IMG/VR virus record: IMGVR_UViG_3300027712_001407
Coordinates: 1 to 48,383 of that record
Length of the DNA: 48,383 nucleotides
Origin: a virus
Strand: one strand, 5' to 3'
Shown: positions 6,714-48,276 of the stretch, one piece after another
How the letters are laid out: every line of letters starts with the position of its first letter
How positions within the stretch are numbered: the first letter of the stretch is position 1
The notes under the pieces: model-generated
What the model saw: only the letters and a program-made list of their open reading frames with translations
Databases searched by the model: none
Told to the model about the DNA's origin: nothing
Translations under genes and position numbers: made by a program

Positions 6714-7478
6714 ATGATCGCTTGCAAAGCTACTTATAATTTCAAATGTCTCAATCAAGAGTATAAAATCGGAAAGACTTATACATCTGATAAGTTGGAA
6801 ATCTGTAAACACGGTTTCCACTTCTGTCAAAATATGGAAGATGTATTAGAATATTATCAACCATCAAAAGATTTCGTTCTTCTTGAAATTGAAGTTCTCG
6901 GCAAGATTGAAACGAATAGAGATAAATCCGTTACGGATAAGTTCCGTGTAATTCGTGTAATTCCTTTTGAGGAATATACTGATATCATGAAATCTCGATT
7001 TCCCACCTGTGAATACGATGAAAGGAATAATCTTATTTCTATAACGTATCCAGATTGTGAAAGGCATACCTATGAATACGATGATAGGAATAATCGTATT
7101 TCTGAGACTTATCCAAGTGGTACCAAGTGTATCTATGAATACGATGATAGGAATAATCGTATTTCTACAACGCGTCCAAATGGCGAAAAGTATACCGTTG
7201 AATACGATGAAAAGAATAATCTTATTTCTATGACGTATCCAAATGGTGTCAAGTATACCTATGAATACGATGAAAGGAGTAATCGTATTTCTACGACGAC
7301 TCCAAATGGCGAAAAGTATACCGTTGAATACGATGAAAAGAATAATCTTATTTCTGAGACGCATCCAAATGGTCGCAAGACTACCTTTGAATACGATGAA
7401 AGGAATAATCATATTTCTACGACGTATCCAGATGGTAAAAAGCATACCTTTGAATACGCTAATGTAACTGAAAAATAA
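6714..7478 (+). CDS. YD/RHS-repeat protein, paralogue 1
   Basis: A 254-residue protein in two parts. Residues 1-95 are a conserved head (KATYNFKC, a C-KHGFHFC pattern, DFVLLEIEVLGKIET) seen in many phage proteins; I believe it is the DUF7666-type domain. Residues 96-254 are seven tandem 21-residue repeats of the form YDxxNNxISxTYPxGxKYTYE, the RHS/YD repeat of large bacterial toxin shells. Here they occur without an Rhs core or toxin tip and with no signal peptide. Three close paralogues lie at 22.2, 26.4 and 27.2 kb. The 63-bp DNA repeats should recombine easily. Function unknown; a binding or decoy surface is a guess. Confidence 0.85.
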   Translation: MIACKATYNFKCLNQEYKIGKTYTSDKLEICKHGFHFCQNMEDVLEYYQPSKDFVLLEIEVLGKIETNRDKSVTDKFRVIRVIPFEEYTDIMKSRFPTCEYDERNNLISITYPDCERHTYEYDDRNNRISETYPSGTKCIYEYDDRNNRISTTRPNGEKYTVEYDEKNNLISMTYPNGVKYTYEYDERSNRISTTTPNGEKYTVEYDEKNNLISETHPNGRKTTFEYDERNNHISTTYPDGKKHTFEYANVTEK

Positions 7479-22205: not shown

Positions 22206-22230
22206 TAAAACATTGCACCAGACTACAAAC
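22206..22230 (+). promoter_or_regulatory. AAACATTG promoter cassette, YD-family variant 2
   Basis: One base differs in the box (AAACATTG at 22208-22215); the rest, CACCAGACTACAAAC then ATG, is as in paralogue 1. Confidence 0.7.
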
Positions 22231-22935
22231 ATGATTGCATACAAAGCTACTTATAATTTCAAATGTCGTAATCAAGAGTATAAAGTTGGAAAGACTTATA
22301 CATCTGATAAGTTGGGAATTTGTAAACACGGTTTATATTTCTGTCAAAAGATGGAAAATGTATTAGAATATCACAACCCATCAAAAGATTTCGTTCTTCT
22401 TGAAATTGAAGTTCTCGGCAAGATTGAAACGAATGGAGATAAATCCGTTACGAATAAGTTCAAGGTTCTACGTGTGATTCCTTTTGAGGAATATACTGAT
22501 AGTGTGAAATCTCGATTTACCACCTGCGAATACGATGAAAAGAGTAATCTTATTTCTGAGATGCATCCAGATGGTAGTAAGTATACCTATGAATACGATG
22601 AAAAGAATAATCGTAAATCTATGACGTATCCAAGTGGTACCAAGTGTATCTATGAATACGATGATAGGAATAACATGATTTCTGAGACATATTCACACGG
22701 TAAAAGGTATACCTTTGAATACGATGATAGGAATAACATGATTTCTGAGACACCTTCACATGGTAAAAATTATACCTTTGAATACGATGATAGGAATAAT
22801 AAAATCTCTACGACATCATATCCAGAGGGTAAAAAGTATACCTATGAATACGATGAAAGGAATAATAAAATCTCTACGACATATTCAAATGGTGTCAAGA
22901 TTACTTATGCGCCTGCGGTGATCACCGAGGAATAA
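22231..22935 (+). CDS. YD/RHS-repeat protein, paralogue 2
   Basis: A 234-residue paralogue: the same 95-residue head followed by six YD repeats, one of which is 22 residues instead of 21 (TTSYPEGKK). The C-terminus differs from the others (APAVITEE). ATG 22231 matches the other family members; the in-frame ATG at 22213 lies inside the promoter. The stop overlaps the next promoter box. Confidence 0.82.
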   Translation: MIAYKATYNFKCRNQEYKVGKTYTSDKLGICKHGLYFCQKMENVLEYHNPSKDFVLLEIEVLGKIETNGDKSVTNKFKVLRVIPFEEYTDSVKSRFTTCEYDEKSNLISEMHPDGSKYTYEYDEKNNRKSMTYPSGTKCIYEYDDRNNMISETYSHGKRYTFEYDDRNNMISETPSHGKNYTFEYDDRNNKISTTSYPEGKKYTYEYDERNNKISTTYSNGVKITYAPAVITEE

Positions 22936-23954: not shown

Positions 23955-24578
23955 ATGATTCTCTTGAACAAAAAGTTAATTCCAGATGGTCCCTTTTATG
24001 TGGGGGTAAGCGGCGGTATTGATAGTATCGCATGTCTTCACCTTCTACAAAGAATGCTTGGCAATCGTGTTAAGGCATGTCACTACAATCATAATTTGCG
24101 TTCGCAAAACAATATCATGCAACAAAGCGTCGAACGCTTTTGTGATGATTTGAATATTCAATTGATTGTAGCGACACGCCCTAGCCAAGACATTCTTGGA
24201 AATGTTGAGCATAATCTTCGTAACGATAGACTGGATTTCTTTCGCAGTCTGAATCATGACGTTGTTCTCTGTCATCATCTTAACGATGCGGTTGAGAGTT
24301 ACATCATGAATATGTTGCGCGGTTGTCCAGAATATGTTCCCATTCCAATGATCACCAAATTGGAAGATTCTTCATATAGTCTTCGTCATCCGTTTCTTGG
24401 TTCTTGCAAGACTGATATTATCAATTACGCTACCAATCAAAAGCTGATTGATTATGTCGTGGAGGACGACACCAATGCAGACAACAAGTATCAAAGGAAT
24501 TGGATTCGTAACGAGATTACGCCGATGTTTAAAGAGTATGGTCTTGAAAAAATTGTTAAGAAAAAGTTCTATAGCTAA
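23955..24578 (+). CDS. tilS: tRNA(Ile)-lysidine synthetase-like PP-loop protein
   Basis: A 207-residue protein with the PP-loop VSGGIDS (18-24), CHYNHNLRS near 43, LCHHLNDAVES near 100 and the TilS signature EDDTNADNKYQRNWIRNE near 172. TilS uses ATP and lysine to turn C34 of tRNA-Ile(CAU) into lysidine, so that it reads AUA. Only the catalytic domain is present; the C-terminal tRNA-binding domains of bacterial TilS are absent, as in some minimal bacterial forms. A phage tRNA with anticodon CAU lies 4.7 kb downstream and could be its substrate (inference). Confidence 0.85.
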   Translation: MILLNKKLIPDGPFYVGVSGGIDSIACLHLLQRMLGNRVKACHYNHNLRSQNNIMQQSVERFCDDLNIQLIVATRPSQDILGNVEHNLRNDRLDFFRSLNHDVVLCHHLNDAVESYIMNMLRGCPEYVPIPMITKLEDSSYSLRHPFLGSCKTDIINYATNQKLIDYVVEDDTNADNKYQRNWIRNEITPMFKEYGLEKIVKKKFYS

Positions 24579-26398: not shown

Positions 26399-27163
26399 AT
26401 GATTGCATACAAAGCTACTTATAATTTCAAATGTCGTAATCAAGAGTATAAAGTTGGTAAGACTTATACATCTGATAAAATGGAAATTTGTAAACATGGT
26501 TTTCACTTTTGTCAAAAGATGGAAAATGTATTAGAATATTATCAACCATCAAAAGATTTCGTTCTTCTTGAAATTGAAATTCTCGGCAAGATTCAAACGA
26601 ATAGAGATAAATCCGTTACGGATAAGTTCCGTGTAATTCGTGTGATTCCTTTTGAGGAATATACTGATAGTGTGAAATCTCGATTCCCCACCTTTGAATA
26701 CGATGAAAGGAATAATCTTATTTCTGAGACTTATCCAAGTGGTACCAAGTGTATCTATGAATACGATGATAGGAATAACATGATTTCTGAGACATATTCA
26801 CACGGTGACAAGTATACCTATGAATACGATGAAAAGAATAATCGTATTTCTACAACGTATTCAAATGGTGACAAGCATACCTTTGAATACGATGAAAAAA
26901 ATAATCGTATTTCTGAGACTTATCCAAATGGTGAGAAGTATACCTTTGAATACGATGAAAAGAATAATCGTATTTCTACGAAGCATTTAGATGGTGACAA
27001 GCATACCTTTGAATACGATGATAGGAATAATAAGATTGCTGAGACATATCCAAATGGTGACAAGTATACCTATGAATACAATGAAAAGAATAATCGTATT
27101 TCTGAGACTTATCCAAGCGGTATCAAGTATACCTATGAATACACCAATGTAACTGAACAATAA
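26399..27163 (+). CDS. YD/RHS-repeat protein, paralogue 3
   Basis: A 254-residue paralogue with the common head and seven 21-residue YD repeats, ending YTNVTEQ. The head is nearly identical to paralogues 1 and 2, while the repeats are shuffled among the copies. It lies directly upstream of paralogue 4. Confidence 0.85.
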   Translation: MIAYKATYNFKCRNQEYKVGKTYTSDKMEICKHGFHFCQKMENVLEYYQPSKDFVLLEIEILGKIQTNRDKSVTDKFRVIRVIPFEEYTDSVKSRFPTFEYDERNNLISETYPSGTKCIYEYDDRNNMISETYSHGDKYTYEYDEKNNRISTTYSNGDKHTFEYDEKNNRISETYPNGEKYTFEYDEKNNRISTKHLDGDKHTFEYDDRNNKIAETYPNGDKYTYEYNEKNNRISETYPSGIKYTYEYTNVTEQ

Positions 27164-27185: not shown

Positions 27186-27950
27186 ATGATCGCATACAAA
27201 GCTACTTATAATTTCAAATGTCTTAATCAAGAGTATAAAATCGGAAAGACTTATGCATCTGATAAAATGGAAATTTGTAAACACGGTTTTCACTTTTGTC
27301 AAAAGATGGTAGATGTATTAGAATATTACAAACCATCAAAAGATTTCGTTCTTCTTGAAATTGAAGTTCTCGGCAAGATTGAAACGGGAACCACTAAGTG
27401 TGTTACGGATAAGTTCCGTGTAATTCGTGTGATTCCTTTTGAGGAATATACTGATAGTGTGAAATCTCGATTTCCTACCTTTGAATACGATGAAAGGAAT
27501 AATCTTATTTCTGAGACTTATCCAAGCGGTATCAAGTATACCGTTGAATACGATGAAAAGAATAATCGTATTTCTGAGATGCATCCAAATGGTAGCAAGA
27601 CTACCTTTGAATACGATGAAAAGAATAATCGTATTTCTACAACGTATTCAAATGGTGACAAGTATACCTGTGAATACGATGATAGAAATAATAAGATTGC
27701 TGAGACTTATCCAAATGGTGCCAAGTATACCTATGAATACGATGATAGGAATAATCTTATTTCTGAGACGCTTCCAAATGGTACCAATCATACCTATGAA
27801 TACGATGATAGAAATAATAAGATTGCTGAGACATATCCAAATGGTGACAAGTATACCTATGAATACAATGAAAAGAATAATCGTATTTCTACAACGCGTC
27901 CAGATGGTACCAATTATACCCATGAATACGCCAATGTAACTGAACAATAA
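27186..27950 (+). CDS. YD/RHS-repeat protein, paralogue 4
   Basis: A 254-residue tandem neighbour of paralogue 3 with seven YD repeats ending YANVTEQ. A four-residue change in the head (GTTKC for NRDKS) sets it apart. The pair is a recent tandem duplication that includes the promoter. Confidence 0.85.
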   Translation: MIAYKATYNFKCLNQEYKIGKTYASDKMEICKHGFHFCQKMVDVLEYYKPSKDFVLLEIEVLGKIETGTTKCVTDKFRVIRVIPFEEYTDSVKSRFPTFEYDERNNLISETYPSGIKYTVEYDEKNNRISEMHPNGSKTTFEYDEKNNRISTTYSNGDKYTCEYDDRNNKIAETYPNGAKYTYEYDDRNNLISETLPNGTNHTYEYDDRNNKIAETYPNGDKYTYEYNEKNNRISTTRPDGTNYTHEYANVTEQ

Positions 27951-29063: not shown

Positions 29064-29088
29064 TAAAACACTGACCTAAGATAACACC
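29064..29088 (+). promoter_or_regulatory. AAACACTG promoter cassette
   Basis: AAACACTG at 29066-29073, ACC, TAAGAT, 6 nt, ATG at 29089. Confidence 0.72.
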
Positions 29089-29277
29089 ATGTCAAACATC
29101 AATCTGTTTAAGGCTCCTCAAATTCCTATTCGCTCTTCTTGGAAGCAAGAAGTGTTCAAACGTCCTAAGAAGAGCGGTTCTATTGTTAATCGCAGTCTTC
29201 TACATAGTCGGCAATCGCCACTTGTTAAGAGTCAGGGAAGTTTTGTTCAAAAAGATATCTCAGGATACCAATACTGA
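29089..29277 (+). CDS. small basic hypothetical protein
   Basis: A 62-residue, strongly basic, low-complexity protein (many Ser, Lys, Arg). It ends 10 nt before the tRNA. No family recognised. Confidence 0.5.
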   Translation: MSNINLFKAPQIPIRSSWKQEVFKRPKKSGSIVNRSLLHSRQSPLVKSQGSFVQKDISGYQY

Positions 29278-29287
29278 GGTTCTTATT

Positions 29288-29379
29288 GGGCGTGTGACCA
29301 GAATGGTTAATGGCCCGTTTTCATAAAGCGGTATGGATATGAAAGTCCTTTGTGGGTTCGAGTCCCACCGCGCCCACCA
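29288..29379 (+). tRNA. tRNA with anticodon CAU and a long variable arm
   Basis: 92 nt including an encoded ACCA end. The acceptor stem GGGCGTG pairs with CGCGCCC (one G-U). The anticodon arm is CCGTT/TTCATAA/AGCGG with all five pairs and U33, giving CAU. The T arm GTGGG/TTCGAGT/CCCAC is perfect. Between them lies a 20-nt variable region with a small stem (GGAT/GTCC). The D arm is weak and position 26 seems to be missing. A long variable arm marks Leu, Ser or Tyr tRNAs, none of which normally reads CAU. Amino-acid identity is therefore uncertain. Confidence 0.8.
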
Positions 29380-29635: not shown

Positions 29636-29914
29636 ATGAACATCGAAGCATTCGTAAACGAACTTAACAAGAAGTGGCCTAAAACTCCATTCGGCTCCAG
29701 TTTTATGTTTATTTTTGGTAAGAAATATTATAAGATTTGTAGGACTCGCGATGGTATTAAACCCGAGTCATCCTATGCCTTTGTTGATATTGATACTGGT
29801 GATCTTTACAAGTCTGCTAGTTGGGCACAACCTGCGAAACGTATTCGTGGAAACATTAACGATCCATCTGGATTGGATGCCTGTTATGAATATTCTGTTT
29901 GTTATCTCCGTTAA
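29636..29914 (+). CDS. small hypothetical protein
   Basis: A 92-residue protein with a pattern common among large-phage proteins: FIFGKKYYKICRTR, then FVDIDTGDLYKSASWAQPAKRIRGNI. I recall it as a conserved phage protein but cannot name the family. Confidence 0.65.
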   Translation: MNIEAFVNELNKKWPKTPFGSSFMFIFGKKYYKICRTRDGIKPESSYAFVDIDTGDLYKSASWAQPAKRIRGNINDPSGLDACYEYSVCYLR

Positions 29915-34887: not shown

Positions 34888-35439
34888 ATGAATATGTCCG
34901 AATATAACGAAATGCTAAGTGATCTTAAGCGCAGCGGTATTGATATCAACAGTACAAGTCGAGAAGATATTGTCAATCAGGCTATGTCTGAACATGGTAT
35001 TCCTCTCATGGAGATTCTTGAAAATTTTAATCGGGACGCTGTTCTTGAAGCTGTGTATGAAGCTATGATTGCTTACAATGCTATTGTTGATGAAGAGGAA
35101 GAGGATGAAGAGGATGAAGAGGAAGAGGACAATGATGATGGCATTGTTTTTGATACAAACGGTCGTATCATTTCTGAGTTTATTGATGACCAGCTTGTCG
35201 TTTATACCTATGATGAAAAGGGCAATCTTATCACTGAGACTTATCCTGATGGTACAGAGTATCGCAGGGAATACGATGATCGTAACAATATGATCAAAAG
35301 TATCAATACAGAAGGATCAATTTCCATGTATGAATACAATGACAACAATAAGCTTATCAAGTATATCTATCCTGATGGTAGAACGGTAAGTTACGTTCGT
35401 GATAGCAATGACGTGCTTGTTGATACAATTCTTGTCTGA
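34888..35439 (+). CDS. acidic protein with a C-terminal YD-repeat tract
   Basis: A 183-residue protein. Residues 1-65 are helical. Residues 67-83 are a run of about 15 Glu/Asp. Residues 85-183 hold four to five YD repeats (YDEKGNLITETYPDGTEY and similar). It is a more distant relative of the four YD paralogues and has a different head. The acidic run could act as a DNA mimic or a flexible linker (guess). It is the last gene before the non-coding hub. Confidence 0.75.
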   Translation: MNMSEYNEMLSDLKRSGIDINSTSREDIVNQAMSEHGIPLMEILENFNRDAVLEAVYEAMIAYNAIVDEEEEDEEDEEEEDNDDGIVFDTNGRIISEFIDDQLVVYTYDEKGNLITETYPDGTEYRREYDDRNNMIKSINTEGSISMYEYNDNNKLIKYIYPDGRTVSYVRDSNDVLVDTILV

Positions 35440-45458: not shown

Positions 45459-45553
45459 TGGAGGAGAGCATCGGGATCGAACCGAAAGGCCGCTGTTCAC
45501 GACCTCCCTCTGTTTAGCAAACAGCGACAGCCACCGAGGCTGCATTACTCTCC
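45459..45553 (-). tRNA. tRNA-Ser(GCU)
   Basis: 95 nt including an encoded CCA. Acceptor GGAGAGT pairs with GCTCTCC. The anticodon loop TTGCTAA gives GCU and the stem has four good pairs. A long variable arm (GAGGTCGTGAACAGCGGCCT region) marks it as class II. The discriminator base is U, not the usual G73 of serine tRNAs. Confidence 0.88.
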
Positions 45554-47566: not shown

Positions 47567-47857
47567 TAGCCGTGGTCGGACTCGAACCGACAAGCCCAAG
47601 GGCGGCAGATTTTCTTACCACTATAGTTTTCACTACCTACACAATGTATAGTTTGTGGTCTGGACTATCCCTTGATCATAACTTTCGTCTTAGATCCTCG
47701 CCGTCTAGTCTCTACACCTTCCTTATTACTAAGGCTTGGCTCGGGATTGGCATTTTAAAGCGTTCCCCGAATTTGACGAGTTACATCTATAAAGTTTCCC
47801 CTATAGAGCTCAATTTATCTTATAAGTCTGCTGTGTTTACCATTTCACCACACGGCC
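47567..47857 (-). tRNA. tRNA-Leu(UAA) split by a group I intron
   Basis: Exon 1 is 47824-47857 (34 nt) and exon 2 is 47567-47613. Spliced, the tRNA has acceptor GGCCGTG/CACGGCT, a D arm with G10-C25, U11-A24 and G12-C23, an anticodon arm GCAGA/CUUAAAA/UCUGC with anticodon UAA, a variable arm (GCCC/GGGC) and a T arm GTCGG/TTCGAGT/CCGAC. A73 is present but CCA is not encoded. The anticodon only becomes UAA when the intron between U34 and A35 is removed. Confidence 0.93.
47614..47823 (-). ncRNA. group I intron (210 nt) in tRNA-Leu(UAA)
   Basis: The intron starts after the U of the anticodon and ends in G, as group I introns do. Core parts in order: P2-like TCTATA/TATAGA; P4 TCGGG/CCCGA; P6 CCTTA-GTAA-TAAGG; the R-like block GGTGTAGAGACTAGACGG; P7 GACTA/TAGTC; P9 TAGT-GAAA-ACTA; final GGTAAG. 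The order and wording closely follow the cyanobacterial/plastid tRNA-Leu intron (AATCCCGAGCCAAGCC, GGTG-AGAGACT-GACGG, AGTCC). No open frame is inside, so it has no endonuclease of its own. Confidence 0.92.
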
Positions 47858-48114: not shown

Positions 48115-48187
48115 ATAAAGATATTATTATATGGTTCAAGAAAATCAATTCACTTTGTGATATTTGATTAACTTGTTCTGTAAAGTG

Positions 48188-48276
48188 AGGAGGGAGTGGG
48201 ATTCGAACCCACGGAAGGCTCGTCACCTCCTCTACTTTTCAAGAGTAGCGTATTAATCCATCTCTACCATCCCTCC
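48188..48276 (-). tRNA. tRNA-Ser(UGA)
   Basis: 89 nt. Acceptor GGAGGGA/TCCCTCC, perfect. Anticodon arm CTACT/CTTGAAA/AGTAG gives UGA. A long variable arm (GAGGTGACGAGCCTTCC region) and T arm GTGGG/TTCGAAT/CCCAC complete it. The position after the acceptor is U and CCA is not encoded (UCAC). Confidence 0.92.

Follow-up and report, generated by a model that had tools for sequence, protein, structure and literature searches.

We propose that a tRNA gene with the anticodon CAU and a long variable arm, found in the viral record IMGVR_UViG_3300027712_001407 (48,383 nt, analysed over its whole length and referred to hereafter as the window), is best explained as a class II-shaped tRNA-Ile2 that would be lysidinylated by the phage's own tRNA(Ile)-lysidine synthetase (TilS) and would decode AUA, a reading to which we give a probability of roughly 0.78. 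The long-armed tRNA appears to be isoleucine-specific, and the phage carries the enzyme needed for that identity. Lysidine at C34 (k2C34) is a determinant for isoleucyl-tRNA synthetase (IleRS) and blocks methionyl-tRNA synthetase (MetRS). We infer transcription, lysidinylation, isoleucine charging and use at AUA as follows: the tRNA would be transcribed together with the short open reading frame (ORF) before it and then processed, and TilS, probably the phage's own rather than the host's, would attach lysine to C34. The lysidine would block methionyl charging and the reading of AUG and would make the tRNA a substrate of IleRS able to read AUA; the tRNA would then supply isoleucine at the phage's AUA codons.

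The original prediction of a well-formed tRNA with a CAU anticodon, a stemmed 20-nt variable region and an encoded CCA is confirmed. ARAGORN calls a tRNA-Met(cat) of 92 nt at exactly 29288-29379 (+), with the anticodon CAT at position 35, and nucleotides 29288-29376 match the Rfam tRNA family RF00005 at 44.5 bits (gathering score 29), a match that a faster scan of the whole window did not pick up. The acceptor stem is GGGCGUG/CGCGCCC, the T arm GUGGG-UUCGAGU-CCCAC and the anticodon arm CCGUU-UUCAUAA-AGCGG. The CAU anticodon, flanked by U33 and A37 A38 in the loop UUCAUAA, and the discriminator A73 at 29376 are both as expected of the lysidine type of tRNA-Ile2. A short (class I) variable region is also expected of that type, and since the region here (29332-29351, UAUGGAUAUGAAAGUCCUUU, stem GGA/UCC) is 20 nt long, we call the tRNA a variant and not a standard member. 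Three bases, U-G-A, precede the D stem CCA/UGG. The D stem as drawn by ARAGORN, with A10.C25, was replaced by the covarying C10-G25 register, in which pair 12-23 is A-U in five and G-C in two of the seven homologous tRNA bodies aligned below. The minimum-energy fold shows the acceptor, T and variable arms, with a z of -2.83 relative to shuffles.

Scanning IMG/VR for CAU tRNAs whose variable region is long returned many class II CAU tRNAs. Among them, two contigs of one phage species (L017 and L090) carry a CAU tRNA with the D arm and variable arm of the window, and searches with these two arms added further bodies with the anticodons CAU (L240, L339), GAU (L335), UAU (L341/L347) and GUU (L343, which has G73). 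The variable-arm pattern was found in none of the bacterial and archaeal genomes of the collection searched. Cultured phage genomes gave no match to the DNA of the tRNA region, nor to the other class II CAU tRNAs, and for the GAU homolog the matches in them were confined to the 3' 30 nt of class I Asn tRNAs. A 25-nt 3' match to a tRNA-Leu(UAA) in L002 and a tRNA-Lys in L003 was rejected as a sign of kinship, as it is merely the common T arm and acceptor.

Alignment of seven homologous bodies (A3, comprising the window's tRNA and six from other viral contigs) indicates that the tRNA structure, long arm included, is under selection. Across the cloverleaf and variable stem 98.8% of pairs are kept, while 14 of the 23 pairs change on both sides, including 6 of the 7 in the acceptor stem; doubly changed cells number 40, compared with 13.2 for shuffles and no more than 8 for slid controls. 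Because pairs are kept to this degree and so many of them change on both sides, the gene is not a product of chance or decay. The same counts weigh on the suggestion in the original prediction that the tRNA is a decoy. It is very improbable that the gene is bait for host tRNA nucleases or is simply drifting, given the retention of pairing, the excess of double changes, the encoded CCA, the conserved syntenic place in L339, the purifying selection on tilS and the co-occurrence of the tRNA with TilS. Likewise, the long arm is neither an intron nor a misfold, which was the outcome that would have restored a normal class I tRNA: all seven aligned bodies retain its stem, two of them through a double change from A-U to G-C.

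The anticodons found on this body bear directly on its identity. GAU, UAU and lysidine-bearing CAU are all isoleucine anticodons, and GUU is that of asparagine. Each of the four distinct CAU members of the family (the window, L017/L090, L240 and L339) lies in a record with tilS, the L339 gene scoring below the cut-off (E 6e-12) because the contig end cuts it. No TilS match over the family cut-off was found in L335 (GAU), L341/L347 (UAU) or L343 (GUU), the L343 record being 318 kb long and the GAU and UAU records short fragments (7.6-18 kb). Of the 79 other distinct class II CAU tRNAs tested, 3 lie in records with tilS, and the comparison with 4/4 gives ~2e-5 by our own arithmetic, with record lengths that differ and L339 partial. 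Among distinct class II CAU tRNAs, tilS is in the record for 6/50 with a paired 1-72 and for 0/32 with an unpaired one (P 0.045); the link to class II CAU tRNAs in general is weak, while within the family of the window tRNA it is strong.

The distances between the two genes vary. In L240 the tRNA comes first, with 12 bp between its end and the tilS ATG, in L017/L090 the tRNA starts ~430 bp past the tilS stop and adjoins a tRNA-Leu(UAA), and in the window the tRNA follows tilS by 4.7 kb. Among the 80 viral tilS loci found by profile scan, many are separated from a CAU tRNA, mostly of class I, by 16-100 bp, and the nearest tRNA is CAU in 13 of the 27 distinct loci having any tRNA (8.4 expected, P 0.012). 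Both shapes share one branch of the TilS tree, where a single 100/98 clade holds the enzymes of the window, L017 and L240, with class II partners, and those of L135, L136, L137 and L143, with class I partners. Four contigs, in which tilS is ~98% identical and the 95-nt spacer almost the same, carry at the same site a class I CAU tRNA (L204/L213) or a class II one (L198/L211), and therefore the two shapes replace each other in the same setting; as L198/L211 fall outside the tRNA family of the window, this evidence is parallel and not direct. Most of L150-L193 belong to a lineage of viral contigs that has a TilS-like gene (~33% identical) and whose fetched stretches lack any tRNA.

An unmodified elongator tRNA-Met on a class II body, reading AUG while tilS serves another tRNA, is an unlikely alternative in the light of this distribution. 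Although an unmodified CAU with A73 makes up the main MetRS determinant set, and the host has a TilS of its own, tilS accompanies the CAU members of the body and not those with other anticodons, a UAU member of the same body reads AUA directly, and the L240 tRNA stands immediately ahead of tilS.

Sequence and predicted fold identify the enzyme encoded in the window as TilS. It scores 115.5 bits against TIGR02432 (cut-off 93.6) and also matches PF01171, the active-site residues are invariant (SGGxDS, H107, D111, E114 and R181-N182-x-I184-R185), and the predicted fold matches the solved TilS 2e21 with a TMq of 0.80, as well as 1ni5 and 3a2k. The alignment covers only the first ~230 residues of the solved TilS proteins, and the C-terminal domains of bacterial TilS are absent. 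A dN/dS (nonsynonymous to synonymous substitution rate ratio) of 0.18 between the window and L004 indicates that tilS is under purifying selection.

To determine how AUA is read, we masked ATA and aligned codons to homologs for the window and three further phages (G002, G014 and G020), each of which has tilS and a class II CAU tRNA. Isoleucine fits the ATA columns best in all four; in the window, G002, G014 and G020, respectively, leucine falls behind by 16.1, 20.2, 8.6 and 22.3 nats and methionine by 25.2, 31.9, 6.1 and 43.2 nats. ATA makes up 14% of the isoleucine codons of the window (161 in predicted genes), and ATA codons of G002 stand opposite Ile 15 times, Val 11 times and Leu 4 times in window proteins. 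The codon columns rule out a reassignment of AUA to Leu, Ser or Met and indicate that AUA is isoleucine in the window, as expected where a tRNA-Ile2 serves it, with Ile and Val nearly tied there.

These columns also speak to the suggestion that the gene is a Ser- or Leu-type tRNA now reading AUG or AUA: AUA is the best-supported decoding, while the Ser or Leu type is not supported, since the same body occurs with GAU, UAU and GUU anticodons, the GUU copy has the Asn discriminator G73, and AUA is read as Ile and not as Leu or Ser. Determinants for seryl-tRNA synthetase (SerRS) are G73 together with the long arm, and tyrosine anticodons have U35. The window tRNA has A73 and A35, and judged by these positions neither a serine nor a tyrosine identity fits it.

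Leucine needs closer weighing. A Leu-type tRNA with its anticodon changed to CAU would be charged by leucyl-tRNA synthetase (LeuRS) and, as a natural mistranslator comparable to the nematode nev-tRNAs, would insert Leu at AUA or AUG. Consistent with this are the long arm, A73, A14-A15 with U48 and G13.A22 as in bacterial tRNA-Leu, the leucylation in vitro of nev-tRNA-Ile(UAU) (PMC4300185), and the fully Leu-like D arms of two other class II CAU tRNAs with tilS in the record (L187, L050). We nevertheless regard it as quite unlikely. The LeuRS of E. coli needs A73, A15-U48, G18G19 and A20a and shows no dependence on the long arm (PMC9976931); the window tRNA has A73 and A15-U48, but A20a, essential for leucylation, is absent by our numbering from all seven bodies, in which the D loop reads AAUNGGU(N)AA. 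Nor is the anticodon one of leucine in any family member: the closest kin bear Ile and Asn anticodons, one with G73, and AUA is Ile in four phages that have tilS and a class II CAU tRNA. An origin from tRNA-Leu based on A15-U48 was dropped because class I CAU tRNAs beside tilS also have this pair.

Several points weigh against the tRNA-Ile2 reading. The bacterial host supplies TilS anyway, and the phage tilS is therefore no proof that the phage enzyme acts on the window tRNA. The window is a linear fragment of 48 kb, and the phage may have a class I CAU tRNA beyond its ends. Judged by the rules for E. coli, the tRNA has the leucine features A73, A15-U48 and G18G19. In the window Val is only 0.6 nats behind Ile at ATA, and the profile sets Ile clearly apart from Leu but barely distinguishes it from Val; it also gives the meaning of AUA and not which tRNA reads that codon.

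Class II CAU tRNAs that resemble initiators, with an unpaired 1-72 and an initiator-like D arm, do occur in viral loci (e.g., L271, L221, L294 and L040/L070). This observation and the CAU anticodon are what a phage initiator tRNA has in its favor here, yet we give that identity next to no weight: G1-C72 is paired, the anticodon stem (CCGUU/AGCGG) lacks the three G-C pairs by the loop, and tilS is in 0 of the 43 records chosen for initiator-like class II CAU tRNAs but is in the CAU records of the window's body.

We parsed 1197 distinct tRNAs from the fetched loci; because these loci were gathered for CAU tRNAs and tilS, the long-arm frequencies are not those of all phages. Long arms were found on Cys, Asn, Ile, Thr, Lys, Trp and other tRNAs (e.g., L335, L343, L218, L199, L207 and L016), and the premise that they belong only to Leu, Ser and Tyr tRNAs fails in these phages. 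None was found in the parsed Phe (0/25) and Val (0/41) tRNAs, and therefore the parser does not produce long arms everywhere. Discriminators of the long-armed tRNAs follow the anticodon, with U73 in 10/10 for Cys, G73 in 13/16 for Asn, 4/4 for Trp and 2/2 for Asp, and C73 in 2/2 for His. It is conceivable, at somewhat less than even odds, that arm length in phages has come loose from identity, with Ile, Asn, Cys, Thr, Lys and initiator-like tRNAs on class II bodies and Leu on class I bodies, the anticodon and discriminator keeping identity and a single shared class II body having been put to new use for Ile (CAU, GAU, UAU) as well as Asn (GUU). Such loosening could be driven by the advantage of evading host nucleases or modification checks that recognize normal tRNA shapes.

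Other tRNAs of these loci also depart from the usual patterns. Leu-anticodon tRNAs with short variable loops are present in viral loci. Two tRNA-Ser genes of the window, at 45459-45553 (drawn with an extra acceptor pair) and 48187-48276 (-), have U73 in place of the usual bacterial G73, as do 18 of the 78 long-armed Ser tRNAs parsed. At ~47568-47857 (-) a group I intron (RF00028, 68.2 bits, 47833-47640) apparently divides a tRNA-Leu(UAA), missed by ARAGORN, into a 5' half GCCGTGTGGTGAAATGGTAAACACAGCAGACTTA and a 3' half AATCTGCCGCCCTTGGGCTTGTCGGTTCGAGTCCGACCACGGCTA, and resembles the intron of cyanobacterial and plastid tRNA-Leu(UAA).

Table 1. Positions of the tRNA gene, its parts and the associated features in the window.
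Feature	Position	Strand	Evidence or remark
tilS, minimal tRNA(Ile)-lysidine synthetase, 207 aa, N-terminal catalytic domain only	23955..24578	+	TIGR02432, PF01171, fold
Promoter-like repeated element TAAAACACTGACCTAAGAT before small ORF and tRNA	29064..29082	+	One of 20 copies
Small ORF directly upstream of tRNA	29089..29277	+	Homolog also directly upstream of tRNA in L339/G113
Class II-shaped tRNA gene, anticodon CAU, A73, encoded CCA; proposed tRNA-Ile2 for AUA	29288..29379	+	ARAGORN, Rfam, fold, homologs, structure counts
D arm CCA-G-AAUGGUUA-A-UGG; C10-G25, C11-G24, A12-U23, G13.A22	29298..29313	+	Seven-body alignment A3
Anticodon CAU, C34 the expected lysidine site	29322..29324	+	Homologs here: CAU, GAU, UAU, GUU
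Variable region, 20 nt, UAU-GGA-UAUGAAAG-UCC-UUU, 3-bp stem	29332..29351	+	ARAGORN, alignment, structure counts
Gene downstream of tRNA	29636..29914	+	Homolog also downstream of tRNA in L339/G113

The L339 tRNA is flanked by homologs of the same two genes as the window tRNA (Table 1). The repeated element, TAAAACACTGNNNTARNNT, occurs at 20 sites on the + strand from 2318 to 31938, mostly right before start codons (0.08 matches expected), and is probably a phage promoter. Five related ORFs with YD-like repeats (EYDERNNKISTTYPNG) lie at 6714-7478, 22213-22935, 26399-27163, 27186-27950 and 34888-35439, and a single G048 copy matches all five.

The identity of a tRNA is often deduced from whether it belongs to class I or class II. 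Kin, neighboring genes and codon use indicate that the window tRNA would supply isoleucine at AUA codons once modified by the virus-encoded TilS, so that in phages the amino acid cannot be read from the variable arm, and shape-based isotype calls for phage tRNAs can be wrong. The tRNA and its presumed modifying enzyme travel together in phages, and such pairs offer test substrates for tRNA recognition by IleRS, LeuRS and TilS. No account of class II Ile tRNAs in phages turned up in the open-access papers searched, and because subscription papers lay outside the search this novelty is provisional.

Among known systems, the bacterial and phage tRNA-Ile2 with TilS share with the window the CAU anticodon, A73, an encoded TilS and AUA as Ile, and k2C34 has been demonstrated on a vibriophage tRNA(CAU) (reviewed in PMC13191261); the window tRNA differs in its 20-nt stemmed variable region, the U-G-A before a 3-bp D stem and a phage-encoded partner enzyme. 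The TilS of Pseudomonas phages MIJ3 and PA5oct is similar to that of the window in length (~205 aa) and active-site residues, with 30% identity, and the MIJ3 enzyme likewise has no C-terminal domains of the bacterial type. The MIJ3 genome has CAU tRNAs too, but all are 77 nt long (class I), and the role of its TilS was left open by its authors (PMC6892783), a question for which the present pairing would provide a concrete answer. The nematode nev-tRNAs (class II Gly CCC and Ile UAU) also combine a long arm with an anticodon outside Leu, Ser and Tyr, and the Ile one would read AUA; they are eukaryotic nuclear genes, leucylated in vitro with no mistranslation detected (PMC4300185), and they have neither lysidine nor a partner enzyme. 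Finally, the selC* tRNA-Cys and allo-tRNAs of bacteria likewise combine a longer variable arm with an identity that would not be expected (PMC7609411), but they have longer, tRNA-Sec-like acceptor and anticodon stems, whereas those of the window tRNA are the ordinary 7 and 5 bp.
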